Shown here piece by piece: positions 2,826-44,042 of a DNA stretch of 64,000 nt. The stretch spans positions 62,001 to 126,000 of the forward strand of contig JAICDB010000004.1 in the NCBI GenBank assembly GCA_020063565.1. Reading direction: 5' to 3'. The translations under genes were made by a program, and so were the position numbers. The notes beneath the pieces are model-generated. The model had not been told where the DNA came from, searched no databases, and saw only the letters and a list, made by a program, of their open reading frames with translations. Position 1 is the first letter of the stretch, and each line of letters begins with the position of its first letter. Source of the DNA: Clostridiales bacterium (lineage in GTDB: Bacteria; Bacillota; DSM-16504; Desulfitibacterales; JAICDB01).

Positions 2826-4603
2826 ATGATGAATTTAACAGATAAAACTAATATTCCTCCCGGTACGGCAGCTCTTATAGAGGGGAGACTTATTATTGCA
2901 GATGCTGAAGAGTGGCAGAATCCGCTAATTTCTGCCGGCAAAAATGTAACAGTTAAAGTCGATGGAAAAGAAATATCGGATGAAGTCCGGGTAAGTAAAG
3001 AAAACCTGGTTGAAATAATTCCTAAAAAAGTATCTCCTGAAGTAAAATTTCTGTTAAAAGTTTCTAATGATAGATTAAAAGCTACATTGGTTGTCCAAAG
3101 GAAAAATGGTAAACAGTTTATACTTGAGGATATTCCTGCGGCAAAAGAATTACATATAGAAACAAAAAAATATAAAGAAATTGAGCCCCCAAGTCCCTCT
3201 AAGGAAGAATTACTCGATTTTCTTAAAAATGAGGGGGTGGTTTATGGAGTTCACGAAGAAGCATTGGATAATTTAGCTGAAAATTTAATCAGTGAAGCTG
3301 TTGTTGCGACAGGAACCCCTCCTGAAAAGGGGGTTGATGCTAGAATAGAATTATTATTTAAAAAAAAAACAATAAGGAAGTAGAAAATGAGGCAAAACAA
3401 AGCATTATTTCTGAACGATTTATTGCAATGGTTGAAGAAGGAGATGACCTGGCAATAAAAATTCCTTCACAACCGGGAAAGCCGGGTCAAGATGTTTATG
3501 GAAAAAGCATAGCGCCTCCACCGGCTAAGGATATATCCCTTATAGCATGTAAAGGCGCTAAACTTGTAGAGGACGGAACAAAGGTAGTTGCTGAAATTAG
3601 CGGCAGGGTGGAAGTGAATAACAATCGCATATCAGTTTTTCCCATCTATTTAGTTGAAGGAGATGCTGCGGCGCAAGAAGGACATATCAAGTTTAATGGT
3701 GACGTAATTGTTAAGGGTAATGTTCTCGACGGCATGAAAATAAAGGCTAAAGGAAATATTGAGGTTACAGGCTTTGCGGCAAATAGTGAATTAACTGCCG
3801 ATAAAAATATTACGGTACATAAAAGTTTGGTAGGATGCACCGTAAAAGCAGGCGGAAACGCACTCCTCTATCGCCAGATAAAAAATCAACTGCAAGGAAT
3901 GCTGGAACAAATATTGGAGCTTGTTACTGCTTTAAAGCAATTTAAAAAGACTACTCAAAAATCCGGTAAAGAAGTTAAAGACGGAGCGCTCTTAAAATTA
4001 CTTTTAGAGAAAAAGTTTACCGGCATCCCCAGCCTTATCACCTCCTCCCTGAAGTTACTTAACAAAATTTCTTTGGAATTCGAAGGAGATTTCAACAAAA
4101 AGCTTGAAGAAACGATAGTTATTGTTAAATCATGGCAAAGAAAAACTGTTGGGTTAGGCCCTCTTGAAATAAATTCAATAGGAGATCTGGAGTATATGCT
4201 ACGATCTCTAAATACAAGTAGCCAGAAACTGCTAAAACTTCTCAATGAAGGCTCAGAAGATGCTTATATAACCTGTGGCTATGTGCAAAACTGTGTCCTT
4301 GAAGCAAGTGGTGGAATCAATATTACAGGTAAAGGGTGTTATAATTCTCAGTTAGTTTCAGTTGGCTCTGTAGAAATAATGGGAATACCGGGCGTTTTCA
4401 GGGGTGGTTCCATCACTGCAATGGGGAATGTAAAAATAAGAGAACTGGGATCGGATGCGGAAACAAAAAGTTTTATTCAGGTCAATAAAGAATCAGTAGT
4501 AATGGCAGATGTAGTCTATCCGGGAACAACTATAAAATCAGGCCCCTATATTAAGAAAATTACAGAAAAAGAATATAATTATAAACTATACGGCTCAACC
4601 TAA
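2826..4603 (+). CDS. FapA/DUF342 family protein, split by a frameshift at an A10 tract
   Basis: Two open frames, 2826-3383 (185 residues) and a second that runs to 4603, together match one FapA/DUF342 (flagellar assembly protein A) protein of about 592 residues. The first half carries the N-terminal FapA domain. The second has the beta-helical DUF342 core, with repeats such as NGDVIVKGNV and GGINITGKG, and a coiled segment between them. The break is at ten consecutive A residues (3360-3369). Reading eleven A residues, or slipping back one base, joins the frames without losing any residue. The cause could be polymerase slippage, programmed frameshifting, phase variation, or a sequence error. 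The family acts around polar flagella, exopolysaccharide or the cell envelope. Confidence 0.75.
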
Positions 4604-4687: not shown

Positions 4688-5914
4688 ATGCTCAAGAAAA
4701 AAACATTACTGGTAATAGTTGCAGTATTATTTTTACTAGTCTTGTCCCCTGCAGCGTGGGCTAAACCGGATATCGAGGGAGAAGCTGGTATTCTCATGGA
4801 TATGAAAACCGGCAAGGTTTTATGGACAAAAAACCCTGATATAAAAAGGGCGCCTGCAAGTACTACCAAAATTCTCACAGCTTTGGTTGCCTTAGAAAAA
4901 GGGAATTTACAGGACCTGGTAAAAGTATCCTCAAATGTTAAGAAGATAGATGGTACCAAAGTGTGGTTAAGGCCTGGAGAAGAGGTAACACTTGAAAACC
5001 TGCTTTATGCAATGCTTGTTAATTCTGCTAATGACGCAGCCCTAGCAATTGCAGAACATATTGGAGGTTCTGTAGAAGGTTTTGCCAAAATGATGAATAC
5101 TAAAGCCAAGGAACTTGGCGCTAAAAACAGTCATTTTGTAAATCCCCACGGTCTCGATCAAGAAGGCCATTATACTACAGCACGTGACCTTGCTATAATT
5201 GCCAGAGAAGCCATGAATAATGAAAAATTCCGTGAGATCGTTCAAACCAAAAAGAAGGAATGGAACGGTATGGATTGGAAAAGTCATCTGGTAAATAACA
5301 ACAAATTACTTTGGCAATATGAAGGCGCTACCGGTGTAAAGACCGGATATACATCTAATGCTGGAAGGTGCCTGGTTGCTTCTGCGAGAAAAGGTGAGCA
5401 AGAATTTTTAAGTGTTGTATTGGGAAGCACTACCCAGGCCTTTTATGAAGACTCCATGGCGCTTTTAGATTATGGTTTCGACAATTTTAAACAAGTTACT
5501 TTGGTAGAAAAGGGCCAGAAAGTTTCAGAAATAAGAGTAGCAGGTCAAATTGTTCCTGTGGTAGCTGCTGAAAGTTTTGAATTACTTGTTGACAAGGGAA
5601 ATTTCGTTCTCCCTAAATGGGAAATTCAAATTAAAAAAAGTGCAGCACCTATAAAAAAAGATAGAAAAATTGGTACTTTAAGTTTAATTATTGAAGATAA
5701 AGAAATAGCGAGTGTACCCCTCCTTGCGGGAAGTACAGTTCCTAAAGGTTTGACATGGCTGGATTGGTATTTTAGAGTGACAGCGGCTATTTTTGGTTTA
5801 GTATTCTTAAGTTTACTTATTAAAATCCTTAGAAAGCGCAAAAAAAGCAAAATCATGTATGGTGGAAGCGGTAGAAGCACTTCACTTGATTATCGTGCAA
5901 TGCGTAAACTGTAA
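4688..5914 (+). CDS. dacF: D-alanyl-D-alanine carboxypeptidase (DacF/PBP5-like, peptidase S11)
   Basis: A 408-residue low-molecular-weight penicillin-binding protein. It has a signal peptide at residues 1-26 ending AWA, the active-site STTK at 58-61, SAN at 113-115 and KTG at 218-220. A C-terminal PBP5-associated beta domain follows. The hydrophobic segment near 355-380 and the Arg/Lys cluster after it indicate a membrane anchor. It trims the terminal D-Ala of peptidoglycan stem peptides outside the membrane; DacF-type members often serve spore cortex or forespore wall modification. A TATAAT-like box lies about 40 bases upstream. A terminator follows it directly, so it is likely monocistronic. 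Confidence 0.92.
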   Translation: MLKKKTLLVIVAVLFLLVLSPAAWAKPDIEGEAGILMDMKTGKVLWTKNPDIKRAPASTTKILTALVALEKGNLQDLVKVSSNVKKIDGTKVWLRPGEEVTLENLLYAMLVNSANDAALAIAEHIGGSVEGFAKMMNTKAKELGAKNSHFVNPHGLDQEGHYTTARDLAIIAREAMNNEKFREIVQTKKKEWNGMDWKSHLVNNNKLLWQYEGATGVKTGYTSNAGRCLVASARKGEQEFLSVVLGSTTQAFYEDSMALLDYGFDNFKQVTLVEKGQKVSEIRVAGQIVPVVAAESFELLVDKGNFVLPKWEIQIKKSAAPIKKDRKIGTLSLIIEDKEIASVPLLAGSTVPKGLTWLDWYFRVTAAIFGLVFLSLLIKILRKRKKSKIMYGGSGRSTSLDYRAMRKL

Positions 5915-5922
5915 ATTTCAAG

Positions 5923-5948
5923 GTAGCTCATTATGGGCTACTTTTTTT
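5923..5948 (+). terminator. intrinsic terminator after dacF
   Basis: GTAGCTCA at 5923-5930 pairs with TGGGCTAC at 5934-5941 (one wobble) around a TTA loop, followed by seven T residues. Confidence 0.9.
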
Positions 5949-6040
5949 GATCTGTTTTGTCAAAATTTGCAGACTTTTGGATAATCAAGGAAGGAATTTA
6001 CTAATATTAAACGAATTTAATTTATAAAATATAGCTTGAA

Positions 6041-6117
6041 AGGGCAAACCATTCCGAAAGGGTGGGACGCAAAGCCATGGGTCTAAAGCATAAAGCTATG
6101 ATTGCCAGGCTGCCGTT
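6041..6117 (+). promoter_or_regulatory. cyclic-di-GMP-I (GEMM) riboswitch aptamer
   Basis: The sequence shows the hallmark GEMM-I blocks in order: AGGGCAAACC at 6041-6050, a hairpin closed by a GAAA-containing loop (6049-6066), GGGACGCAAAGCC at about 6064-6076, and the distal GCCAGG block at 6104-6109. These match the class I c-di-GMP aptamer. It sits in the 5' leader of cheW-cheA-cheB, about 220 bases before the cheW start, so c-di-GMP would tune chemotaxis expression. The gap 5949-6332 contains no gene. Confidence 0.93.
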
Positions 6118-6160
6118 TTACAATTTTTTGAGGCAGCCCAAAAAAGGTTGTCTTTTCTTT
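6108..6160 (+). terminator. riboswitch expression platform with alternative hairpins
   Basis: GGCAGCC at 6132-6138 can pair with GGTTGTC at 6146-6152 (two wobbles), followed by a T-rich tract, which makes an intrinsic terminator. The same GGCAGCC can instead pair perfectly with GGCTGCC at 6108-6114, at the 3' edge of the aptamer, which would block the terminator. If ligand-bound aptamer holds 6111-6114 in its closing stem, c-di-GMP would favour termination. That direction is inferred from pairing alone. Confidence 0.7.
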
Positions 6161-6270
6161 ATATTTAAGGATTTACAGCCTTAAAATATGCAATTTTTGT
6201 TAATTTTAAAAGGAATTTGAAGAAATTTATGGAACTATGTAGCTAAGAAAAAATGTTTTTTTAAAGTGCG

Positions 6271-6299
6271 TGTTCGAAAAGAAGCAAACTTTTCGAACA
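6271..6299 (+). repeat. TTCGAA hairpin element ahead of cheW
   Basis: TGTTCGAAAAG at 6271-6281 is the exact complement of CTTTTCGAACA at 6289-6299, giving an 11-bp stem with a 7-base loop. It is followed by TCCTCTTAAAA and then the cheW RBS TTAGGAGG. Related copies stand before csrA, flgE, cheD and fliK. A CCTC run just after the stem could pair with the AGGAGG of the RBS. Confidence 0.6.
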
Positions 6300-6332
6300 T
6301 CCTCTTAAAAATAAATTAGGAGGTTTATTCAT

Positions 6333-6839
6333 ATGAGAGAAGAAAAAGCCGTCCAAAAGCAAGAAGAACAATTAGTGGTATTCCAACTGGGAAGTGAAAC
6401 ATACGGAGTAGATATTGCTATCGTTAGAGAGATTATTCGCATGCAATCAATCACTCCGGTTCCGCGTACACCTGATTTTGTAGAAGGGGTTATCAATTTA
6501 AGGGGCAGGGTTATTCCTGTAATTGACCTTCACAAGCGCTTTGAATTACCTTGTGGAGATGAGACAAATGATACCCGGATAATAGTTGTTGAAGTGGGAG
6601 AAATAACTGTAGGTATGATAGTTGATTCTGTTTCAGAAGTATTGAGAATTGCATCTGAAAGTATCGATCCTCCACCACCTGTCATATCTTCTGGCGTTAA
6701 TACTGCATACTTGCGGGGCGTTGGAAAACTGGAGGATCGTCTGATTATTTTACTGGATTTACAAAAGATTTTACATGAAGAGGAACACAAGGAACTGGAA
6801 GAATCATTGAAACAGGTGGTCGCAACCGAAGAAGAATAG
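6333..6839 (+). CDS. cheW: chemotaxis coupling protein CheW
   Basis: A 168-residue CheW-domain protein with the typical block LGSETYGVDIAIVREIIR near residues 19-36 and GVINLRGRVIPVIDL near 52-66. It links chemoreceptors to the CheA kinase at the membrane-associated arrays. RBS AGGAGG lies 8 bases before the ATG. The C-terminal tail is somewhat longer than the shortest CheW proteins and is rich in Glu. It is first in a cheW-cheA-cheB operon behind the c-di-GMP riboswitch. Confidence 0.95.
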   Translation: MREEKAVQKQEEQLVVFQLGSETYGVDIAIVREIIRMQSITPVPRTPDFVEGVINLRGRVIPVIDLHKRFELPCGDETNDTRIIVVEVGEITVGMIVDSVSEVLRIASESIDPPPPVISSGVNTAYLRGVGKLEDRLIILLDLQKILHEEEHKELEESLKQVVATEEE

Positions 6840-6863
6840 GTTTTCAGAATGGAGGGGCAAAAA

Positions 6864-8957
6864 ATGACCTCAGGGTTTGATATTTCGCAGTATCTAAATA
6901 TTTTTCTTGATGAAGCAGATGAGCAAATTCAAATACTTGATGAGGCTATAGTTAATTTAGAAAATGACAAAAAAAATTCAGATCTTTTAAATGATATTTT
7001 TAGGGCTGCCCATACTTTAAAGGGATCTTCTGCGTCAATGGGCTTTGAAAAAATGGCTTCTGTGACACATGACCTTGAAAATGTTCTTGATAAGTTACGA
7101 CAAGGTGAGGTTGAGGTTACTCCTGAAATAATTGATCTCTTGCTTGAATGCCTTGATATTATTAAAGTATTAAAGGAAGAAATAGCTTCTGAAGGAAAAG
7201 AAGGAAAAACAGAAACAGAACAATTGATTTCTAAGTTAAAAGTTGTTTTAGATGGTACTACAGTTGCAAAAAATGAAATAACGGTTTCATTTGACGCAGC
7301 CGGGGATGAACATATCCAGCTGGACGATGTGGAAAAGGGTCTTGTGAGTGAAGCCTATAGGAAGGGTTATTTTGTTTGGCACATAAGGGTTACCCTTGAC
7401 TCGGATTGTATGATGAAAGGTCCCAGGGCGTATATAGTTTTTAACAATCTTGAAAGTATAGGTGAAATTATCAAAACAGTACCCAGCGCTGAAGATATTG
7501 AAGCTGAAAAATTTGAAAATCAATTCCATCTTGTACTGGTATCCCAAGAAGACAAGTCCAATGTGGAAAGTATTATAGATTCAGTCTCTGAAATTGAAAG
7601 TATAGTTATAAAGCCCGTTTCCTTGGAGGAAGACAAACTTGAGGAAACAAAAGAACCTGAACAAAAAGAGGATGTTGAAGATAAAGAAGCTACAGAAGAG
7701 GTAAGTGATGATAACAATGTCAGAAGACTTAAAACTGAGAAAATAAAAACCTCGCAAACGGTACGTGTTGATGTTCAGCGTTTAGAAAATTTAATGAACC
7801 TGGTTGGAGAGCTGGTAATAGATCGTATTAGACTGGCAGATGTAGGTGAGAACTTAAAGAATCATCTTGGAACTGAAGGCACCTTGGAAACACTGGAAGA
7901 AGTATCGATTCACATTGGCCGTATTACAGGAGAACTTCAGGAAGAAATTATGAAGGCCAGAATGTTCCCTGTTGAACAGGTTTTCAACCGTTTTCCACGT
8001 ATGGTAAGGGATTTAGCTCGTAGAGCAGGTAAGGAAATTAATTTCCAGGTTGTAGGAAGAGAAACAGAACTTGATAGAACTGTAATTGAAGAGATAGGAG
8101 ACCCTCTAATTCATCTCTTGAGAAATGCCATTGACCACGGTATAGAATCTCCTGAAAAGCGGCGCAAGCTGGGCAAACCTGCGGAGGGTCTTGTTAAACT
8201 ATCTGCTTCACACCAGGAAAATCAAATTGTAATTACAGTAGAAGATGATGGTGCAGGTATGGATCCTGAAAAAATTAAAGCAAAAGCCATAGAAAAGGGA
8301 TTGATAAACCGGGAAAATGCCAGGAGATTGACGCCTAAAGAAGCAATTAATCTTATCTTTAAGCCAGGATTTTCAACTGCCAAGGAAATAAGTGATGTTT
8401 CAGGTCGTGGAGTAGGAATGGATATAGTAAGAAATCATATTGAAAAAATAAACGGTGTAATAGATATCCACTCTGAAGTAGGTAAGGGAACTAAATTTAC
8501 AATTAAGCTACCTCTTACACTGGCAATTAATCGTTCACTGCTTGTTAAACTGGAAGAATCAGTGTTTGCTTTCCCTCTTTCCAATGTAGTTGAAATAATT
8601 AATGTTGAAAAAGATGAAATTAAGCATATACACCGTCAGGAAGTTGTTATGGTGCGTGGGGAAGTATTACCACTCTTTACACTTGAGGAACTGCTGGATA
8701 TTAAGAGGGAAACTCCCAAGAGAGAAAGTTTTCCTGTTGTAGTTGTTAAGATTTCGGAAAAACCTGTAGGTATTATTGTAGATCAACTCTTGGGAGAACA
8801 GGAGATAGTTATTAAATCATTGGGAGACTACTTGGGGCAAGTTCCGGGACTTGCAGGAGCAACTATCATGGGAGATGGTAAAGTTGCCCTTATTCTAGAT
8901 ATTCGGGGGCTGGTACAGCATGCAAGGACAGAAGAATATGCCCGAATCGCCAATTAA
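6864..8957 (+). CDS. cheA: chemotaxis histidine kinase CheA
   Basis: A 697-residue protein with the full CheA order. The Hpt domain has the phosphorylated His in AAHTLKGSS (His50). A P2-like response-regulator docking region lies near 125-250, followed by an acidic linker and a dimerisation domain near 305-370. The HATPase has the N box RNAIDHGIESPEKRR and the G boxes EDDGAGMDP and GRGVGMDIV. The CheW-like domain is at the C terminus. The start is the ATG at 6864, because GGAGGGG lies 6 bases upstream, whereas the ATG at 6849 precedes that site. It phosphorylates CheY (48087) and CheB. It overlaps cheB by 20 bases. Confidence 0.95.
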   Translation: MTSGFDISQYLNIFLDEADEQIQILDEAIVNLENDKKNSDLLNDIFRAAHTLKGSSASMGFEKMASVTHDLENVLDKLRQGEVEVTPEIIDLLLECLDIIKVLKEEIASEGKEGKTETEQLISKLKVVLDGTTVAKNEITVSFDAAGDEHIQLDDVEKGLVSEAYRKGYFVWHIRVTLDSDCMMKGPRAYIVFNNLESIGEIIKTVPSAEDIEAEKFENQFHLVLVSQEDKSNVESIIDSVSEIESIVIKPVSLEEDKLEETKEPEQKEDVEDKEATEEVSDDNNVRRLKTEKIKTSQTVRVDVQRLENLMNLVGELVIDRIRLADVGENLKNHLGTEGTLETLEEVSIHIGRITGELQEEIMKARMFPVEQVFNRFPRMVRDLARRAGKEINFQVVGRETELDRTVIEEIGDPLIHLLRNAIDHGIESPEKRRKLGKPAEGLVKLSASHQENQIVITVEDDGAGMDPEKIKAKAIEKGLINRENARRLTPKEAINLIFKPGFSTAKEISDVSGRGVGMDIVRNHIEKINGVIDIHSEVGKGTKFTIKLPLTLAINRSLLVKLEESVFAFPLSNVVEIINVEKDEIKHIHRQEVVMVRGEVLPLFTLEELLDIKRETPKRESFPVVVVKISEKPVGIIVDQLLGEQEIVIKSLGDYLGQVPGLAGATIMGDGKVALILDIRGLVQHARTEEYARIAN

Positions 8958-9996
8958 AGTACTGGTTGTAGATGACTCGGCATTTATGCGTCGGGTTATT
9001 ATATCCATGCTGGAAAATGATTCTGAAATAGATGTAATAGGGTATGCCAGGGATGGTCAAGATGCCCTTAATAAAATTTCAAAGCTAAAGCCTGATGTAA
9101 TTACTCTGGATGTTGAAATGCCTAAAATGGATGGCATAGAGACTTTAAAAAATATAATGTGCAGTAATCCCCTTCCCGTTGTAATGCTCAGCGCCCACAC
9201 CCGGGATGGAGCACATCAGACGCTTCAGGCTCTGGAGTTGGGAGCAGTTGATTTTGTTGCCAAACCTGAAGGTATCGCAAATATGCAGGCCCTGGCAGGC
9301 GAACTACCACATAAGCTAAAAGTGGCTGCAGGTGCGGAGGTAACCCGCAAGTGTACTCCTTTAGCACCAATTTTAGAGAAAAAAACTGATGAAAAGGTGA
9401 TTAGTGTCTCACGTCCCATAGAGGTGGTAGCCATCGGTACTTCTACCGGTGGCCCAACAGCCCTGCAAACAGTGCTAACTTCGCTGCCACATAATTTACC
9501 GGTGGGAGTAGTTGTTGTACAACATATGCCAAAGGGATTTACAGGTCCCTTGGCTAATCGACTCAATGAGCTCTCAGCCCTTGAAGTTAAAGAAGCGGAA
9601 GAGGGCGATATGATAGCGCCCGGTAAAGTATTAATTGCACCGGCCGGCTACCAGATGCAGTTTGCAAGAAAAGGAGCCGGCGTAACAGTGACTTTAAGTG
9701 AAAATTCACCTATTAAAACTTTATTTAAACCGTCCGTGGATGTAATGCTTCTTTCACTTGCGAAGGTGTATGGCGGTACCTGTTTGGGAGTTATTTTAAC
9801 GGGAATGGGCAACGATGGTACCAGAGGACTAAAAGAACTGAAGAAATTAGGAGCTACAGTGCTGGCCCAGGATAAGGACTCATGTGTCGTATACGGAATG
9901 CCCCGCTCTGCTGTGGAGGCGGGGGTTGTTGATAAAACTGTAACTCTGTCAGAAATGGGAAATGAAATAGTCAAATTGATAAAGCGTAGCAGGTAA
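8938..9996 (+). CDS. cheB: chemotaxis response regulator protein-glutamate methylesterase CheB
   Basis: A 352-residue protein. The N-terminal receiver domain has the acidic pair near residues 12-13, phospho-acceptor Asp58 in TLDVEMPKMDG, and the switch region VVMLSAH. The C-terminal methylesterase domain carries the catalytic Ser in GTSTGGPTAL, His in VVVQHMPKGF and Asp in GMGNDGTRGL. It removes methyl groups from chemoreceptor glutamates, opposing CheR (46626). The ATG at 8938 is chosen over the upstream ATG at 8920 because AAGGA lies 9 bases before it and the family starts close to the receiver domain. Translation is coupled to cheA. Confidence 0.95.
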   Translation: MPESPIKVLVVDDSAFMRRVIISMLENDSEIDVIGYARDGQDALNKISKLKPDVITLDVEMPKMDGIETLKNIMCSNPLPVVMLSAHTRDGAHQTLQALELGAVDFVAKPEGIANMQALAGELPHKLKVAAGAEVTRKCTPLAPILEKKTDEKVISVSRPIEVVAIGTSTGGPTALQTVLTSLPHNLPVGVVVVQHMPKGFTGPLANRLNELSALEVKEAEEGDMIAPGKVLIAPAGYQMQFARKGAGVTVTLSENSPIKTLFKPSVDVMLLSLAKVYGGTCLGVILTGMGNDGTRGLKELKKLGATVLAQDKDSCVVYGMPRSAVEAGVVDKTVTLSEMGNEIVKLIKRSR

Positions 9997-10035
9997 ATTG
10001 TAAGTGAATGTAACAAATGTAACATTTTCTTTAAG

Positions 10036-10064
10036 AGAATCTGCTTAAGCAGGTTCTTTTTTTT
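10036..10064 (+). terminator. intrinsic terminator after cheB
   Basis: AGAATCTGCTT at 10036-10046 pairs with AAGCAGGTTCT at 10047-10057, with TTAA forming the loop, followed by a long T run. It isolates the che operon from the sigma-D operon that follows. Confidence 0.85.
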
Positions 10065-10065
10065 C

Positions 10066-10092
10066 TAAACTTTTTAATGTTATTACCGATAT
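10066..10092 (+). promoter_or_regulatory. sigma-D (FliA) promoter for the flgM operon
   Basis: TAAA at 10066-10069, a 15-base spacer, then ACCGATAT at 10085-10092. This matches the flagellar sigma factor consensus TAAA-N15-GCCGATAT at all but one position. The flgM start is 34 bases downstream. The fliA gene that would read it is at 44042. Confidence 0.9.
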
Positions 10093-17522: not shown

Positions 17523-19402
17523 ATGATTATTAATCACAACATTGCTGCTTTAAACACTTACCGTCAGTTGACCAGTGTCAACAACATGACTAGCAAGTCG
17601 CTGGAAAAGCTGTCGTCGGGGTATCGTATCAACCGCGCAGGTGACGATGCTGCAGGTCTAGCTATCTCCGAAAAGATGAGAGGCCAGATTCGCGGTTTGG
17701 AAATGGCGTCTAAGAATGCGCAGGATGGCATTTCATTGATCCAAACTGCTGAAGGTGCGTTAAATGAAACACACAGCATTCTCCAGCGCATGCGGGAGTT
17801 AGCAGTTCAGTCTGCAAGTGACACCAACACGGAAGCCGACCGTAAGGAACTTCAAAAGGAAGTAGATCAGCTGGCCAGCGAGCTCAGCCGTATCAGCAAC
17901 AACACCGAGTTTAACACAAAAAATCTATTGGGCGGAGCATTTGAAGGAACCTTCCAAATTGGTGCTAATGAAAACCAGAATCTAGAATTGAGCATTAATG
18001 CTATGGATGCATTTACACTTGGGTTAACTGAGAATGTGGCTTCCGTTAGCGCTAGGAACATTTCAAATAATTCTGGAAACGCAGGTGGAAATCTCCAAGG
18101 TGCTGATTTGGCAGATAATCAATATTTGATAGAAGGCACCTATACTGTAGAAGTAACTCAAAATGGTAGCAATGTTGATATTAAGTTAAAGGATTCCGAC
18201 GGGAATGTAGTTGCTTCAAAAATTAACTGGACTGCGGCAGCAGGGGAGGTTACATTGGATACTGTTGGAGATGGTAGTGGAACAAGTGTTATTACTCTTT
18301 CATATGCCTCTGCTACTGCCGCTGGAGACTCCGCTACTCTTGAAATTGGTGCCAATGGTGCAGACTTAGATGAGAGTCAAGCTGCTGGTAATACTGGTAC
18401 GGTTGCAGCCGTTGAAATGAGCGCAACTAATTTATTGGATAAAGGTTCTTACACAATAACTGCAAAATCTGACGGGACTACTGTAGATATTTTGGAATTA
18501 AGGGATTCAAATGGAAATTTATTAGGAAGTTATGATAACTCCGATACTGCACTTGCAGCAAATACAAATTATACAATAGCCTTAGCAGATGGTTCTGGAT
18601 CTGTTACAATTACTACAGGTGGTGTCGCAGCAGCGGATGGTGACGTGTTTTCCTTTACAGTTGTTCAATCCGATTATAAATCCGGAGCATCTAGCGCAGC
18701 TGTAGATTCAGATGGAAACGGTGTATTGGATAAAGAGGCTTATGTAGCAAAGGGCATTGACATCCGTACACAAGCAAATGCCGACGCAGCCATTACCAAG
18801 ATAAATAAGGCCATAGAAGTGGTCTCTGCCGAGCGCTCCAAGTTGGGTGCCTACCAAAACCGTCTGGAACATACTATCAACAACCTGGGGACATCCGCTG
18901 AAAACTTAACGGCAGCTGAATCCCGAATCCGTGACGTTGATTATGCCGAAGCTGCTTAAAGCTGAAGCACAGTCGTCCTAACTGGAAACGGTTGGGAGTA
19001 TCATCGGGTGAATTGCTGGAAACCCCTTAGAGCCTCCCGCCCGACAACGTGACCCGAAAGGGTGGGCGTGAGCGGTCAAAAAGCCGGGAGGATTGGGCAA
19101 TCAGCAGCCGAGCCCCTGTATCGAAAGGTTGGGGAAGGTTCAACGACTAGGGCATACCACCTAAAGCGAAAAGCCACGGTGATGAAGTCCGTAGGGCACC
19201 GTAAGGTGTTCGAAGTACCCGACCCCTAACAGGTAATGCTGAGGGTGAAGATATAGTCTGGTCTGAATGGAAACATTCAGTGGCGACGATGGCCAAAGAA
19301 ATGATGGCATTCACCAAGAATAACATCATCAGCCAGGCAGCAACAAGTATGTTGGCGCAGGCAAATCAGATGCCACAGCAGGTACTATCTCTGCTCAGAT
19401 AA
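17523..19402 (+). CDS. hag: flagellin, gene interrupted by a group I intron (exons 17523-18941 and 19289-19402)
   Basis: Exon 1 encodes the N-terminal D0/D1 region ([36 protein letters not shown]), a long variable region with two similar beta-rich modules, and the start of the C-terminal helix to SRIRDVD. An in-frame TAA at 18957-18959 lies in the intron. Exon 2 restores the missing end, [12 protein letters not shown] to QQVLSLLR. Joining after GAT (18941) and before ATG (19289) keeps frame and gives the family sequence RDVDMAKEMM. The spliced protein has 510 residues. Without splicing the C-terminal D0 helix would be missing and filaments should not form. The exact junction is inferred from protein alignment and the U/G rule. 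Confidence 0.88.
18942..19288 (+). ncRNA. group I self-splicing intron in the flagellin gene
   Basis: About 347 bases, more GC-rich than the surrounding exons. Group I core elements are visible. GGGCAATCAGCAGCCGAGCC at 19095-19114 resembles the P4-J4/5-P6 region. GACTA at 19145-19149 pairs with TAGTC at 19254-19258 (P7), the latter inside the typical GAAGATATAGTC. A P9 hairpin CTGAATG-GAAA-CATTCAG is at 19263-19280. The predicted 5' exon ends in U and the intron ends in G. P1 pairing with GTCGTC at 18972-18977 is weak, so the junction may shift. It contains no open frame. Group I introns in flagellin genes are known from thermophilic bacilli. Confidence 0.88.
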
Positions 19403-19549: not shown

Positions 19550-20479
19550 ATGAATTTTAGTTCAATTTTTGCAGGTAAAATGCTTGGTGATGCTTATTTA
19601 AACTGTTCACATAGTGCAGTTCGTTTTGCTTTTATTCATGCATTAAAAGATAAAGACTATGCAGAGCATTCCTATAATCTTTTTGCAAAGTTCTTGCCAT
19701 TTAACTCAAATGGTATTAAGGTGGAGCATATTTATGACAAAAGAACGAATAAAACTTATTCGAGAGTTTTTTGTCAATCTAGAACTTCCCCCTTACTAAA
19801 TGAAATGTATTCAATGTGGTACAGAAAAAATAGGAAAGTTATTCCTAAGGATTGGTTAGAGAAAAGTTTGACCTCGGAAGGATTGGCCATATGGTTTCAG
19901 GATGATGGTTGTTTAAAGAATAATGGGAATAGAATTATTTTATCTACCGAGTCATTTACTGAGGAAGAAAAAGACTTTCTTCTTAAAGTAATGAAGAAAA
20001 AGTTTCTTATTAATGCTTCAATTGATACCCAAGGGAGAATAGATATTTCTCGTTCTAGGGAAGTTCGAAAGTTTCAAGCGTTAGTTGAACCCTACATACA
20101 TAAAAGTATGAAAAGAAAAAGTATCAATAACAGGTGGCAACATTGGGAAAAAGAATGGAGAGAAGTTAGTCATTCGAAAAAGGGTATATGTAGAACCTCT
20201 ATTTATCTTCCTGATCAATTTTATCACTCTTTAAAAGGAAAAGAATATTCTAATATTCTTAACAATCTATTGGATAAATGGCTGGATAAAGAATGGAATG
20301 AAAATTTATTAAATCCTGATAAAAGATATTTATGGTTGTTAAATCATGATGGTGTACAAAAAGGGTCTAATTTACTGACTCCTCGCTTTGAGCGAGATAT
20401 TAAGAAAAGATTAGATATTATTGCGGAAGTAACAGGTTTTGAACGATCGGAGTTAGTAATAATGGCACTTAAAGAATAA
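19550..20479 (+). CDS. LAGLIDADG-family homing endonuclease
   Basis: A 309-residue protein with two LAGLIDADG-type helices: FAGKMLGDAYL (residues 7-17, acidic Asp14) and LAIWFQDDGCL (112-122, Asp118/119). These give one active site pair on a single chain. The C-terminal 100 residues are Lys/Arg-rich and may add DNA contacts. It has its own start with GGGAAGTG upstream and lies beyond the flagellin terminator, not inside the intron. It may be the former mobility enzyme of that intron, or an independent mobile gene. Codon use is more AT-rich than in the flagellar genes. Confidence 0.85.
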   Translation: MNFSSIFAGKMLGDAYLNCSHSAVRFAFIHALKDKDYAEHSYNLFAKFLPFNSNGIKVEHIYDKRTNKTYSRVFCQSRTSPLLNEMYSMWYRKNRKVIPKDWLEKSLTSEGLAIWFQDDGCLKNNGNRIILSTESFTEEEKDFLLKVMKKKFLINASIDTQGRIDISRSREVRKFQALVEPYIHKSMKRKSINNRWQHWEKEWREVSHSKKGICRTSIYLPDQFYHSLKGKEYSNILNNLLDKWLDKEWNENLLNPDKRYLWLLNHDGVQKGSNLLTPRFERDIKKRLDIIAEVTGFERSELVIMALKE

Positions 20480-20519: not shown

Positions 20520-20930
20520 AGAGTTTTTCGGGGGACAGTGCGCCACGAAGGCGAAGGGCTATCTGATGGTCCGAAAGCTATGCTTAGCCGAAGATGAGGG
20601 AAGGCCCTTCGGAGCCGCCATACAGGTGGAGGCTCCAAGGGCGTAGGTGCCAGGCACCTAACTTATTATGCTCAGGGAAATGCGGGAACTGGCCGAGCGC
20701 GCCAGGGACAACGACCTGACCCAAGCGGAAGCGCGGGAAGTCAACGCCAGGCTGCAGGAATTGGAGAAAGAAGTCAGAGCCCTGGACGCAGGGAGCAGGG
20801 GGTTTTGGATGGACTGCTTTTGCTCGCCAACAAAAGATGTTTCGGGAGTGATCGCCGTGCGGGAGCGGCAGAACTAGCAGAAGGGTATCCTCAGCCTCGA
20901 GTTGAGGGCGGAACTGGAAAGTATAAAATA
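20520..20930 (+). other. GC-rich structured island of unknown nature, with a flagellin-like relic
   Basis: No clear gene lies between 20480 and 21024. The first 140 bases form nested inverted repeats: CGAAGGGC (20552-20559) with GCCCTTCG (20604-20611), GCTA/TAGC (20577-20588), GGAGCC (20611-20616) with GGCTCC (20631-20636), and AGGTGCC/GGCACCT (20645-20659). A short frame at 20668-20877 reads MLREMRELAERARDNDL, similar to the flagellin helix [10 protein letters not shown], but ends after 69 residues. GC content is far above that of the flanks. This suggests acquired or degraded DNA, possibly with a structured RNA. Confidence 0.4.
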
Positions 20931-20986: not shown

Positions 20987-21024
20987 ATTAGAGATGATAC
21001 TATTACTTAAAAAAGGTGATCTTT

Positions 21025-21462
21025 ATGCAGTATTTAAATAATAAGCACATAACAAGCAAGTTATTTAGTAAAGAATTTGCAGACTTCTGTGTGAATAATG
21101 AAATAAGGCTGGCTGTGCTCTTTGGTTCGCAAGTTTCAGGTGAAACCAGAGAAGACAGCGATTTTGATATAGCAATTTTAATAGACAAAAGCAGTTATCC
21201 TCAAGCAAGTATTGAAATAGGGAAATTAAAACGCAAGCTAATTAGAGAGTTGTCTTTATTTTTTGAAACGTCCAAAATAGATTTGGTGCTTTTAAACCGG
21301 GCTTCACCACTTTTAAAATTTCAAGTTGCACGTACGGGTAAAGTAATTTATCAAAAAAATCGTAGTGAATTTGCTGATTTTGCATCGTTATCTTTACGCC
21401 AACATATAGATGCAAGGTTGTTTTACCAGTTGGATGAAATCTATTTAAAAAATAATATATGA
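21025..21462 (+). CDS. mntA: MNT-domain nucleotidyltransferase antitoxin (MntA-like)
   Basis: A 145-residue protein with the minimal nucleotidyltransferase signature GSx10DxD: Gly34-Ser35 in LFGSQVSGE, then Asp46 and Asp48 in SDFDIAIL. A third acidic residue is in KIDLVLL. MntA proteins add AMP to a tyrosine of the partner HEPN toxin and so silence it. The ATG at 21025 follows AAAAAAGGTG. The partner gene begins 17 bases after the stop. Confidence 0.85.
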   Translation: MQYLNNKHITSKLFSKEFADFCVNNEIRLAVLFGSQVSGETREDSDFDIAILIDKSSYPQASIEIGKLKRKLIRELSLFFETSKIDLVLLNRASPLLKFQVARTGKVIYQKNRSEFADFASLSLRQHIDARLFYQLDEIYLKNNI

Positions 21463-21479
21463 TTTGACGGAGGCAGATA

Positions 21480-21908
21480 ATGGTCAATAAAGCGGTTGTG
21501 CAGAGAAAATTGAAAAAACTAAAAGAATATCTCAAAGAATTAGCGACATTTGAGGAGCTTACATGGGAAGAATACCTTGAAAACTTTCAACACCGGCGTA
21601 CAGTAGAGAGGTTGATACAGCTTATTGTAGATACTGCAGTTGATATAAATTCCCATGCGGTGGTTGATGCAGGAAACCCTCCGCCATGTGACAATTTTAA
21701 TTCTTTTATTGAAGCTGCTAAACTAGGCATGTTTCCCTTAGAATTCGCCAGAAAGATTGCTCCTTCAACTGGAGAGAGAAATATTATAGTTCATGAATAT
21801 GAACAGATCGATGATGCTTTAGTATACAATAGTATCAAAGAAGGGTTATCTATGTATAGGCAGTATCTGGAGTATCTTCTTGACTTTGTTGAAAATTATC
21901 CTGAATAA
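21480..21908 (+). CDS. hepT: HEPN-domain ribonuclease toxin (HepT-like, DUF86)
   Basis: A 142-residue helical HEPN protein with the catalytic Rx4HxY motif at Arg100-His105-Tyr107 (ERNIIVHEY). In the HepT-MntA systems the tyrosine of this motif is the AMPylation target. The RBS GGAGG lies just before the ATG. With mntA it forms a toxin-antitoxin module inserted between the flagellin region and the main fla/che operon. An RNA target cannot be told from the sequence. Confidence 0.87.
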   Translation: MVNKAVVQRKLKKLKEYLKELATFEELTWEEYLENFQHRRTVERLIQLIVDTAVDINSHAVVDAGNPPPCDNFNSFIEAAKLGMFPLEFARKIAPSTGERNIIVHEYEQIDDALVYNSIKEGLSMYRQYLEYLLDFVENYPE

Positions 21909-22033
21909 AAAGGGCTTGAGTCCCTTAAAGACCATTTTTATCCCATGAAATCCTGAGCAAGTTCGGAGAATGTTCTAATAATTCTACGCTATAGCCTTTA
22001 TTAAGATAACAATAAACTTGGAGGTTGATTCGA

Positions 22034-22342
22034 TTGGGGAATTTACAACAGAACCCTCCCCAGCAAAAGAATGTTGGACTGGCAGTTGCTCTGAAATATG
22101 ACGATGATTCAGGAAGTGCGCCTGTTGTTGTGGCTTCCGGCAGGGGCAAAGTGGCAGAAAATATTATTGAAAGGGCGGAAAAAGAAAATATACCTACCTA
22201 TAGAGACGAATCTCTGGTAGGACTTTTAGCATCCCTTGAGGTAGGTACCGAAATTCCTCCTGAGCTATATGAAGCAGTTGCCCAGGTAATAGCATTTGTG
22301 TGGCAGCTTGATAAAAAATATGACAGGGAGCAAGTTGACTAG
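22034..22342 (+). CDS. FlhB C-terminal-domain-like protein (YlqH/FlhX type)
   Basis: A 102-residue protein matching only the cytoplasmic C-terminal domain of FlhB. It shares VGLAVALKYDDD, a segment ending VVVASGRGKVAENI, and IPPELYEAVAQVIAFVWQLDKK with the full-length FlhB at 38204. The NPTH autocleavage motif is absent; the protein starts where the cleaved fragment would. Such stand-alone proteins can partly replace the FlhB C-terminal domain in export switching. The TTG at 22034 is preferred, with GGAGGT 8 bases upstream. Confidence 0.85.
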   Translation: MGNLQQNPPQQKNVGLAVALKYDDDSGSAPVVVASGRGKVAENIIERAEKENIPTYRDESLVGLLASLEVGTEIPPELYEAVAQVIAFVWQLDKKYDREQVD

Positions 22343-22344
22343 CT

Positions 22345-23289
22345 ATGAAAGCAGTTAACGTTAAAATATCATCCCAAAGCTTACATAAACTTCAGCAGCA
22401 ACTTTCCTTAAGGGAAGGGCAAGTTATTAAGGCTGAGGTTGTTCAAATAAAGGGAAAGAAAATACTACTTAAAATAGGTACTACGATACTTAACGCAGAA
22501 ACAAAAGTTCCGTTACAAAAGGGAGAAAATTTGCAGTTACTTGTAGAGTTGCTTAAAGATAATTTTATAAAGCTTAAAATTATTCCGGAAGGCGAAACCA
22601 TAAAACGTGAAACAATAATGCTATCACGGCTTGGAGTCAAACCTCAGGAAAACCTGGAACAAACGGCACAGCAGCTCTTGAAATTTAAAATGCCTCTAGC
22701 AAAAGAAATTTTAGGTGAAATAAGTACTATCGTTAAAAGACATAACTTACCCAAGGAAATACTTCCACTAGTTGTGTGGCTAAAAAGCGTCGGTCTAAAG
22801 CTGGATACGAAAGAGGATCTACAGGAGATAAAAAATATGCTCCGGTTTTTTAAAGGAGAACTTTCTTCTCAAGAGGAAACAAAATTTTTCAGGTTGCTTA
22901 ATGAATCAGAAAGTACAATTCTGGGTGGGTATAATATCTATGGCTGGCCTTTAGATAATCATCACTTGTATCTCTTAACTTCTAATTCTAAAGGAGAAAG
23001 GATCCGGCCGGAAAGTTGTACGGTGATTATAAAAATGGCTTCACAAACATTCGGTGACTTGTGGTTTAAAATAAATTATTTGGGAAACACCTTAAAAATT
23101 TCCATAACATGCAATAATGAACTACACAAAAAAGTACTTGAAGGGGAAGTAGCTCTATTACAAAAAGGTTTACAAGCTATAGGATACAGGGTAAGTGAAG
23201 TAAAAGTGGAAACTGAGGAGATAGATACTGTTTTCGATTTAATCCCTATACCTCTTCAAGAAATTAAAGGTGTGAATTACAAAGTGTGA
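22345..23289 (+). CDS. YlqG/FliK-like protein of unknown role
   Basis: A 314-residue protein that begins 2 bases after the FlhB-like gene. The N-terminal 90 residues form a beta-rich region (VIKAEVVQIKGKKILLKIG). The C-terminal third, with TFGDLWFKINYLGNTLKISIT, resembles the hook-length-control-like C-terminal domain. In B. subtilis ylqG and ylqH are also adjacent, though in the opposite order. Direct evidence of function is lacking. Confidence 0.5.
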   Translation: MKAVNVKISSQSLHKLQQQLSLREGQVIKAEVVQIKGKKILLKIGTTILNAETKVPLQKGENLQLLVELLKDNFIKLKIIPEGETIKRETIMLSRLGVKPQENLEQTAQQLLKFKMPLAKEILGEISTIVKRHNLPKEILPLVVWLKSVGLKLDTKEDLQEIKNMLRFFKGELSSQEETKFFRLLNESESTILGGYNIYGWPLDNHHLYLLTSNSKGERIRPESCTVIIKMASQTFGDLWFKINYLGNTLKISITCNNELHKKVLEGEVALLQKGLQAIGYRVSEVKVETEEIDTVFDLIPIPLQEIKGVNYKV

Positions 23290-23453
23290 TTTAGCTCTAC
23301 GATTTTAATATGGCTTATACTGCCCATGTGGGGGTAGACCTGCGCGGGTTTTTCTTTTGCTATTTTTAGGGCTAAGGGTGGTTTTGGATTGTGGGCCAAG
23401 AAGAAATAAAAGACACTGATTGCAAATATAGGATTAAAATAGGACCTAACTAA

Positions 23454-23547
23454 AAGAAAAACAGGACTAATGTCCTACGAAAAATATGGTAAAATTTACA
23501 TTAATAAATAATATTCGCTATGAAGCTACTTTTTAAGTAGCTTTTTT
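23454..23547 (+). promoter_or_regulatory. gap before flgB: degenerate sigma-D-like box and a terminator
   Basis: The gap 23290-23665 has no gene. ACAGGACTAATGTCC at 23461-23475 resembles the flagellin promoter region (ACAGGACTAAAGTTT), with TAAT at the -35 position and a poor TGGTAAAA at the -10 position. Further on, AGCTACTT (23524-23531) pairs with AAGTAGCT (23535-23542), followed by T residues, making a terminator ahead of flgB. The main promoter of the large operon is not obvious. Confidence 0.5.
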
Positions 23548-23665
23548 ATATAGCAAATATTACAAATTACGTTAAAAATTATCGAAAAATGCAGGAAAAA
23601 AGGAGCTTTTGTGGAAACAGATAATATGGTTAGTTATGCCTCGAAAATTATTTGGGGGTGCTCCT

Positions 23666-24076
23666 GTGACAGTTTTCAACAATCGTACTATGAAGGTTTT
23701 AGAAAAGGCTTTAGATGGTGCGTCTGCAAAACAAAAGGCTATAGCTCATAATATAGCAAATGTGAACACCCACGGTTTTAAAAGCTTTGAAGTAAGCTTT
23801 AAAGAGCAGTTAAGAAATGCGCTGGGACATTCTGATAAACTGACTTTAAAAGCTACGGACCACAGGCATATAACTAATAAGATTGATATTAATGAGCTTG
23901 TTCCGCAGGTTACCAGAAATAATACAACAAGCGCTAGAGCTGATGGTAATAATGTTGATATAGATAAGGAAATGACGGAATTGGCCAAAAACACTATTTA
24001 CAACAGTGCTGCTATTACCCAGCTAAATAAAAAATTAGCTATTTTAAGATATGTGATTTCCGAGGGGAGGAGATAA
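23666..24076 (+). CDS. flgB: flagellar basal body rod protein FlgB
   Basis: A 136-residue rod protein with the SAKQKAIAHNIANVNTHGFKSFEVSF motif at residues 19-44 and the C-terminal helix ITQLNKKLAILRYVISEG. The GTG at 23666 fits FlgB length and has GGGGGTG 6 bases upstream, whereas the longer frame from 23609 adds an unrelated N terminus. It is the first gene of the main fla/che operon. Confidence 0.93.
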   Translation: MTVFNNRTMKVLEKALDGASAKQKAIAHNIANVNTHGFKSFEVSFKEQLRNALGHSDKLTLKATDHRHITNKIDINELVPQVTRNNTTSARADGNNVDIDKEMTELAKNTIYNSAAITQLNKKLAILRYVISEGRR

Positions 24077-24079
24077 ACC

Positions 24080-24529
24080 ATGAACATATTTTCCACTTTA
24101 AATATCAGCGCTAGCGGCCTTGCTGCAGAACGCTTGAGAATGGATTTAACAGCTCAAAATATTGCAAATGTCAATACCACAAAAACTGAAGATGGCGGGC
24201 CATATAAACGTAAAGTGGCGGTATTTAAAGAGAAACTGCAGCAGGAAATACATAAGAGGAATGAAAAATTCCAGGGAAGTAATGAAAAGTTTCAAGGAAA
24301 TGGTGTTGAGGTCGATAAAATTGTAACTGATGATTCACCACCTATCATGGTTTATGATCCGAACCATCCCCATGCCAATGAAGAAGGTTTCGTTGCTAAG
24401 CCCAACATTAACCTGGCAGATGAGATGGTTGATTTGATTACTGCTTCCAGGGCTTATGAAGCAAATGTAGCCGTACTAAATGCTACCAAACAAATTGCCA
24501 TGAAAGCTTTAAGTATAGGTAGAGGATAG
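24080..24529 (+). CDS. flgC: flagellar basal body rod protein FlgC
   Basis: A 149-residue proximal rod protein with the LTAQNIANVNTT motif near residues 23-34 and the C-terminal MVDLITASRAYEANVAVLNATKQIAMKAL. The middle contains a tandem repeat (NEKFQGS, NEKFQGN) that looks like a recent 21-base duplication. It starts 3 bases after flgB. Confidence 0.95.
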   Translation: MNIFSTLNISASGLAAERLRMDLTAQNIANVNTTKTEDGGPYKRKVAVFKEKLQQEIHKRNEKFQGSNEKFQGNGVEVDKIVTDDSPPIMVYDPNHPHANEEGFVAKPNINLADEMVDLITASRAYEANVAVLNATKQIAMKALSIGRG

Positions 24530-43364: not shown

Positions 43365-44042
43365 ATGAAAACGAAAGAAATTTTAAAAGTCAACAGCAAA
43401 ATAGAGATAATGTCACAGGATGATGATACAATCTATAAAAGTTTAATACAGGACATTTTTGATGATTCTTTTCTCATAGGGGTTCCTGTTTATAAAAGGC
43501 ATAAGCTTAACCTTCACAAAGGTGATATTGTAAACGTTACAGTTTTTTCAGGCAGTTCCTGTTTTAATTTCTTTTCAGAAGTTCTGGGAAAAAGGGAAGA
43601 AAATGGACTTTCACTGTATATTCTAAAGAAGCCTCACAAATATAAAAAGATTGAAAGAAGGGATTTTGTAAGGGTTGAGGTTGCACTTGAAGTGAAATAT
43701 GAGATAATTTCTGACAGAAAAAACTGGGAAAAAGTAAAACCTTCTCAAAAAGCTTTTTCTATAGATTTAAGTGGTGGGGGGGTACAGCTTATACTTCCGG
43801 AGGACCTTCCCCCTCATTCGCTACTGGTTTTAGAGATCCCAATTGATATCGATTGTACTGATATTACTATGAAATTGTTAGGACAGGTAGTTAGAAGTGA
43901 AGAGGAAAAAATCGCTGATATATCCCGTTTTAAGACTGGTATAAAATTTGAAGATATCTCAGAAAGGGAAAGGGACATCATAATAAGATTTGTTTTTTCT
44001 CAAATGCGTAAAACTCTGCATCTGCGTCGGAGTGATTCTTAA
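43365..44042 (+). CDS. ycgR: PilZ-domain flagellar brake protein (YcgR/YpfA-like)
   Basis: A 225-residue protein with an N-terminal YcgR domain and a C-terminal PilZ domain. The c-di-GMP-binding motifs are RRDFVR near residues 103-108 and DLSGGGVQL near 140-148, which match RxxxR and D/NxSxxG. When c-di-GMP is high such proteins slow or stop the motor. With the riboswitch at 6041, it gives a second c-di-GMP input to motility. Confidence 0.9.
   Translation: MKTKEILKVNSKIEIMSQDDDTIYKSLIQDIFDDSFLIGVPVYKRHKLNLHKGDIVNVTVFSGSSCFNFFSEVLGKREENGLSLYILKKPHKYKKIERRDFVRVEVALEVKYEIISDRKNWEKVKPSQKAFSIDLSGGGVQLILPEDLPPHSLLVLEIPIDIDCTDITMKLLGQVVRSEEEKIADISRFKTGIKFEDISERERDIIIRFVFSQMRKTLHLRRSDS

Follow-up and report, generated by a model that had tools for sequence, protein, structure and literature searches.

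A c-di-GMP-I riboswitch in the leader of cheW-cheA-cheB and two sigma-H-type promoter elements around it in a Clostridiales bacterium

The leader of cheW in this Clostridiales bacterium raises the question whether c-di-GMP controls the core chemotaxis kinase and, if so, how completely. A sequence-only reading had placed a c-di-GMP-I riboswitch with mutually exclusive hairpins in front of cheW-cheA-cheB. This was followed up in the window, i.e., the whole 64,000-nucleotide stretch of contig JAICDB010000004.1 that was analyzed, and in related genomes. Positions are those of the window; all features of the cheW leader, of the chemotaxis unit, and of its borders lie on the + strand.

Riboswitch aptamer and chemotaxis unit

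The aptamer (c-di-GMP-I, GEMM-I) was located at 6033-6117, in the 5′ leader of cheW, using the Rfam covariance model RF01051 (Rfam 15; 74.9 bits vs. a gathering score of 35, E = 7.2e-13). The match was full length, covering model positions 1-87, and RF01051 was the top-scoring clan member at this site. With a complete aptamer scoring above the gathering score, the riboswitch call was correct; the span originally given, 6041-6160, takes in the terminator but cuts off the first bases of the aptamer. Model position 11, the c-di-GMP discriminating position at which the GGC variant and the cGAMP variants differ (PMC9262584), is a G (6043), and the aptamer is predicted to bind c-di-GMP. Six c-di-GMP-I aptamers were counted in the genome (2.36 Mb, 29 contigs), this one included. 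Another of them (L005, G000 C1 30011-30098) precedes an apparent HD-GYP-type phosphodiesterase gene, with which it might form a feedback loop. The signaling system itself is available: thirteen GGDEF matches were obtained, and a gene for a YcgR-type PilZ protein (43365-44042) in the same flagellar cluster provides a second, protein route for c-di-GMP.

Upstream of the riboswitch, dacF, encoding a D-Ala-D-Ala carboxypeptidase (Pfam PF00768), is followed by an intrinsic terminator at 5920-5950 (11-pair stem, T tail). Downstream, Pfam confirmed all three genes of the proposed target: cheW (6333-6839; PF01584, 149 bits), cheA (6849-8957; Hpt, P2, H-kinase_dim, HATPase_c, and CheW domains), and cheB (8920-9996; receiver and CheB_methylest domains). 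The start of cheB overlaps cheA, and its true start may lie downstream of 8920. A second terminator (10033-10064; 12-pair stem, T run) follows cheB, and a sigma-28-type promoter, TAAA-N15-ACCGATAT, is located at 10066-10092 before flgM, the sole + strand match of this pattern in the window. Because these two elements split cheB from flgM, cheW-cheA-cheB is probably a transcription unit of its own within the surrounding flagellar cluster, which reaches approximately 50.6 kb. The target was therefore rightly described as chemotactic: the proteins under riboswitch control would be those of chemotaxis, and flagellar structure would not be targeted directly. The same two elements weaken the idea that the riboswitch heads the entire flagellar cluster.

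Several other features of the window were recorded. A group I intron (RF00028, 82.6 bits, 18970-19280) interrupts the flagellin gene (17523-19396) between ...VDYAEAA and ...EMMAFTKNN, with a LAGLIDADG-like endonuclease reading frame (19550-20479) downstream. The flagellin region of a Moorella relative (L040) contains a group I intron too, and such introns have been described in flagellin genes of thermophilic Bacillus (PMC3984707). Between flagellin and flgB in the flagellar cluster, at 21016-21908, lies a nucleotidyltransferase/HEPN-like pair (MntA/HepT type, by eye); at 20596-20651, a marginal group-II-D1D4-2 match (37.2 bits vs. a cut-off of 36) was obtained, with no recognizable group II intron around it. 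The fapA gene (DUF342; 2826-4603), preceded by a sigma-H-like element at 2757, occurs as two frames, the break lying in a stretch of ten A residues (about 3360-3371). In same-order relatives, fapA is one frame of about 595 codons; the break reflects a frameshift or phase variation, or else a mistake in the assembly.

Expression platform and direction of the switch

The expression platform overlaps the 3′ strand of the aptamer. GGCUGCC (6108-6114), at the aptamer 3′ end, forms seven of seven standard pairs with GGCAGCC (6132-6138), giving an antiterminator hairpin at 6108-6138. This second strand also pairs with GGUUGUC (6146-6152); together with flanking GA/UU, a stem of nine pairs results (6130-6138 with 6146-6154, three G-U), and with the U-rich tail the terminator spans 6130-6162, as found by pairing and by a terminator scan. 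Both hairpins share strand 6132-6138, so that they are mutually exclusive, as had been claimed, and a platform of the transcription-termination type is supported. In unconstrained folding, transcripts with 3′ ends at 6139-6145 adopted the antiterminator and the transcript ending at 6154 adopted the terminator. Three terminator-like sites were found in 5850-6400, versus 0.3 expected from shuffles.

The direction of the switch was assigned by comparison with Cd1 (Cdi1_3), a riboswitch of the same aptamer class with a motility-related target, the flgB operon of Clostridioides difficile (PMC6366702, PMC3649979), which was shown to be an OFF switch both in vitro and in vivo (PMC6366702, PMC9262584). 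Its strand logic is the same, terminator T+H versus antiterminator A+T (PMC9262584). In the cheW leader, aptamer and terminator are compatible in one fold, whereas the antiterminator disrupts aptamer pairs 6073-6076/6108-6111; a terminator that tolerates the folded aptamer and an antiterminator that does not are the marks of a Cd1-type OFF switch. Folding of the whole leader yielded another, long-range structure as the minimum-energy fold (z −1.45) and did not single out the switch, and the assignment consequently rests on the Cd1 comparison and on pairing logic, not on energy. These suggest an OFF switch of the transcription-termination type. The opposite direction, in which the ligand-bound aptamer favors read-through, is improbable. 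It has precedents in the class I riboswitch Bc1, for which activation of downstream reporters was reported (PMC11218506), and in the cGAMP pilM switch, which is ON (PMC9262584); however, pilM is wired oppositely to the Cd1-type cheW leader, and here it is the antiterminator, not the terminator, that takes the aptamer 3′ strand, so that ligand should block the antiterminator.

Two putative sigma-H-type promoters and the proposed origin of the cheW leader

The sigma-H consensus is RNAGGAWWW / RNNGAATWW (PMC8510167). An element matching it strictly, P1 (AGGAATT-N11-AACGAAT, 5992-6016), is located approximately 17 bases directly upstream of the aptamer. It reads GAAGGAATTTACTAATATTAAACGAATTT and satisfies RNAGGAWWW, 11-12 bases, RNNGAATWW; the strict pattern was matched once in 5945-6032, at P1, and with a frequency of 0.0004 in shuffles of that stretch. 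A second element, P2 (AGGAATT-N11-ATGGAAC, 6211-6235), lies between the riboswitch terminator and cheW. Its −35 region and spacing fit the consensus, but its −10 region is GAAC instead of GAAT and its strength is therefore uncertain; the GAAC ending is also present in the cheW leaders of two other genomes (G036 and G114). The frequency of a P2-like match by chance in its stretch was 0.001 to 0.013. The genome contains a sigH gene (378.5 bits vs. a cut-off of 294.8) and 20 strict sigma-H motifs versus three for a reversed control. One of the 20 precedes spoVG, a classic sigma-H target. Both P1 and P2 are accordingly described here as putative sigma-H promoters, their activity and sigma factor being predicted from sequence. 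A sigma-A-type promoter between riboswitch and cheW was also considered and rejected, as the one 9/12 match (6158-6187) was no more than found in shuffles.

Between P2 and cheW, the leader carries a dispersed palindromic repeat at 6271-6299, TGTTCGAAAAG-N-CTTTTCGAACA. The palindrome, AAGTGNGTGTTCGAAAAG-N-CTTTTCGAACATCCTCTT, recurs with perfect outer arms at 11 other genome sites, and the flanks shown look intergenic; as one of 12 dispersed copies, this hairpin was rejected as a cheW-specific regulator. Beside it, a small hairpin is predicted at 6301-6323, in which CCUCUUAA would pair with the cheW Shine-Dalgarno region UUAGGAGG.

The element AGGAWTT-N11-RNNGAA is shared by cheW leaders of related genomes, the majority of which have no riboswitch close by; it lies about 50 to 140 bases 5′ of cheW, and P2 is its positional counterpart. 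For counting, the last 150 bases of 59 cheW leaders from 26 families were used, with four near-duplicates dropped and the P2 region of the window counted in. The sigma-H-type pattern (spacer 11 or 12) occurred in 33 of the 59 leaders and 15 of the 26 families (shuffles: mean 0.66, maximum 3). The spacer optimum was sharp at 11, other spacers being nearly empty. The P2 spacer is alike at 10 of 11 positions to that of the cheW promoter in G113 (p = 0.0005, best spacer match), and the upstream flank of P2 resembles those of same-order genomes (p = 0.0065). Spacer and flank of P1 did not resemble the cheW promoters of relatives (p = 0.13 to 0.49). As the flanks of P2 and not those of P1 match the relatives, P2 appears to have been inherited as the cheW promoter, and the P1-riboswitch-terminator segment to have been added.

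No GEMM-I aptamer directly before cheW-cheA-cheB was found in the Rfam-scanned relatives, to approximately 1.9 kb upstream, a few loci ending short of this. In Moorella-type genomes, an aptamer or a GGC variant precedes a receptor gene approximately 2.3 kb upstream of cheW, and a small opposite-strand gene separates this receptor gene from cheW. Two same-order genomes (G001 and G002) carry c-di-GMP-I riboswitches in the same gene cluster, whose aptamers have a sigma-H-like promoter immediately upstream; there, however, the riboswitch precedes flgB, whereas cheW has a sigma-H-like promoter and no riboswitch. There is no support for the cheW riboswitch being a relocated copy of the one before flgB in relatives: its aptamer has its best match elsewhere, and the platforms differ. 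In the window itself, a search of 21900-24100 with E values up to 1 gave no second, degenerate riboswitch before flgB of the kind found in the same-order genomes.

A close arrangement is the cheW-mcp riboswitch of G040 (L082), where GEMM-I with a terminator also lies directly before a cheW gene. That cheW is paralogous (48 percent) and is followed by a receptor gene and no cheA, and the promoter is sigma-A-like. Likewise, in Bc1 of the Bacillus cereus group, a class I riboswitch with a terminator-based platform precedes a chemotaxis gene, mcpE, but this gene encodes a receptor instead of the kinase, two terminators are present, and reporter fusions did not point to a promoter within the 5′ UTR (PMC11218506). 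Cd1 differs in three respects: the target in the window is cheW-cheA-cheB, a unit distinct from the flagellar genes; the riboswitch is followed by a conserved promoter element; and the promoter ahead of the aptamer is of sigma-H type, whereas Table 2 of PMC3649979 assigns the c-di-GMP riboswitches of C. difficile to sigma-A promoters. Placement on chemotaxis genes is thus well known for c-di-GMP-I riboswitches, with cheW-cheA-cheB as a variation, and the riboswitch is genuine, of an ordinary class and in a somewhat unusual place.

The reading preferred here, with a probability of about 0.62, is that P1 and P2 act in tandem, that the OFF riboswitch acts on P1 only, and that P1, riboswitch, and terminator were added upstream of an ancestral P2. 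A transcript from P1 would run through the class I riboswitch. With c-di-GMP bound, the aptamer 3′ end would be held, 6132-6138 would be free to pair with 6146-6152, and transcription would stop near 6155-6165. Without ligand, 6108-6114 would capture 6132-6138 and RNA polymerase would read on into cheW. P2, as the ancestral cheW promoter, would start transcription 3′ of the terminator and be insensitive to c-di-GMP. High c-di-GMP would then lower the chemotaxis kinase, the coupling protein, and CheB to the level set by P2, not to zero, and the P1-riboswitch-terminator segment would be a lineage-specific gain.

Two other accounts of the promoters have to be weighed. P2 could be a chance match or a decayed relic, in which case all cheW transcription would come from P1 and c-di-GMP would gate cheW-cheA-cheB fully. 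P1 is indeed the better match and the P2 −10 region deviates, and the arrangement would resemble that of Cd1 and flgB (PMC6366702); against this, an element is kept at the P2 position in riboswitch-free relatives, and it is P2, not P1, that shares spacer and upstream flank with them, which leaves full gating an unlikely though serious competitor. Conversely, cheW might be driven by P2 alone, in keeping with its position as ancestral promoter, while the P1 segment serves mainly to make a short RNA that ends at the terminator, or to act as a roadblock to transcription. This is very unlikely, because the antiterminator/terminator machinery is intact, as expected only if read-through matters. Tandem promoters thus remain the favored account: since P2 agrees with the conserved cheW promoter element of relatives lacking a riboswitch, the riboswitch most likely gates one of the two. 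Complete control of the unit by c-di-GMP is not supported, given the sigma-H-type element after the riboswitch and before cheW. The earlier view that c-di-GMP is tied to the chemotaxis kinase stands in that the riboswitch precedes the unit, but is narrowed in that probably only one of two promoters is gated.

Sigma-H-like promoters before c-di-GMP-I aptamers

A sigma-H-like promoter was also found within approximately 80 bases upstream of the aptamer in 12 of 56 c-di-GMP-I leaders (shuffles: mean 0.29, maximum 2), including three of the six aptamers of this genome and the same-order flgB-region aptamers; the loci named for this observation are L001-L035, L068, L070, L074, and L145. Since the sample was non-random, the genomes are related, and the pattern was slightly loosened after local cases had been seen, this count is a lead. 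No prior report of sigma-H-like promoters before c-di-GMP-I aptamers was found in the literature searched. A tentative generalization, somewhat less probable than its negation, is that in this and related Bacillota lineages sigma-H-type promoters are recurrent launch sites of c-di-GMP-I riboswitches, forming an AND gate of sigma-H, the transition-phase sigma factor, and low c-di-GMP on motility and chemotaxis; cheW-cheA-cheB would be an old sigma-H-type unit to which a gated promoter copy was added before the ungated one.

c-di-GMP-I riboswitches are already known on flgB operons and receptor genes. Through such a riboswitch on the kinase operon, c-di-GMP would determine how much of the entire signaling core is made, and not the level of one receptor, and the locus shows how a riboswitch may be added beside an existing promoter with the old control kept. 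The more general result is that cheW-cheA-cheB carries a sigma-H-type promoter element in many Bacillota families, and that such elements also precede about a fifth of the c-di-GMP-I aptamers sampled. Should experiments bear out both, a simple layout would link entry into stationary phase or sporulation to chemotaxis and c-di-GMP.
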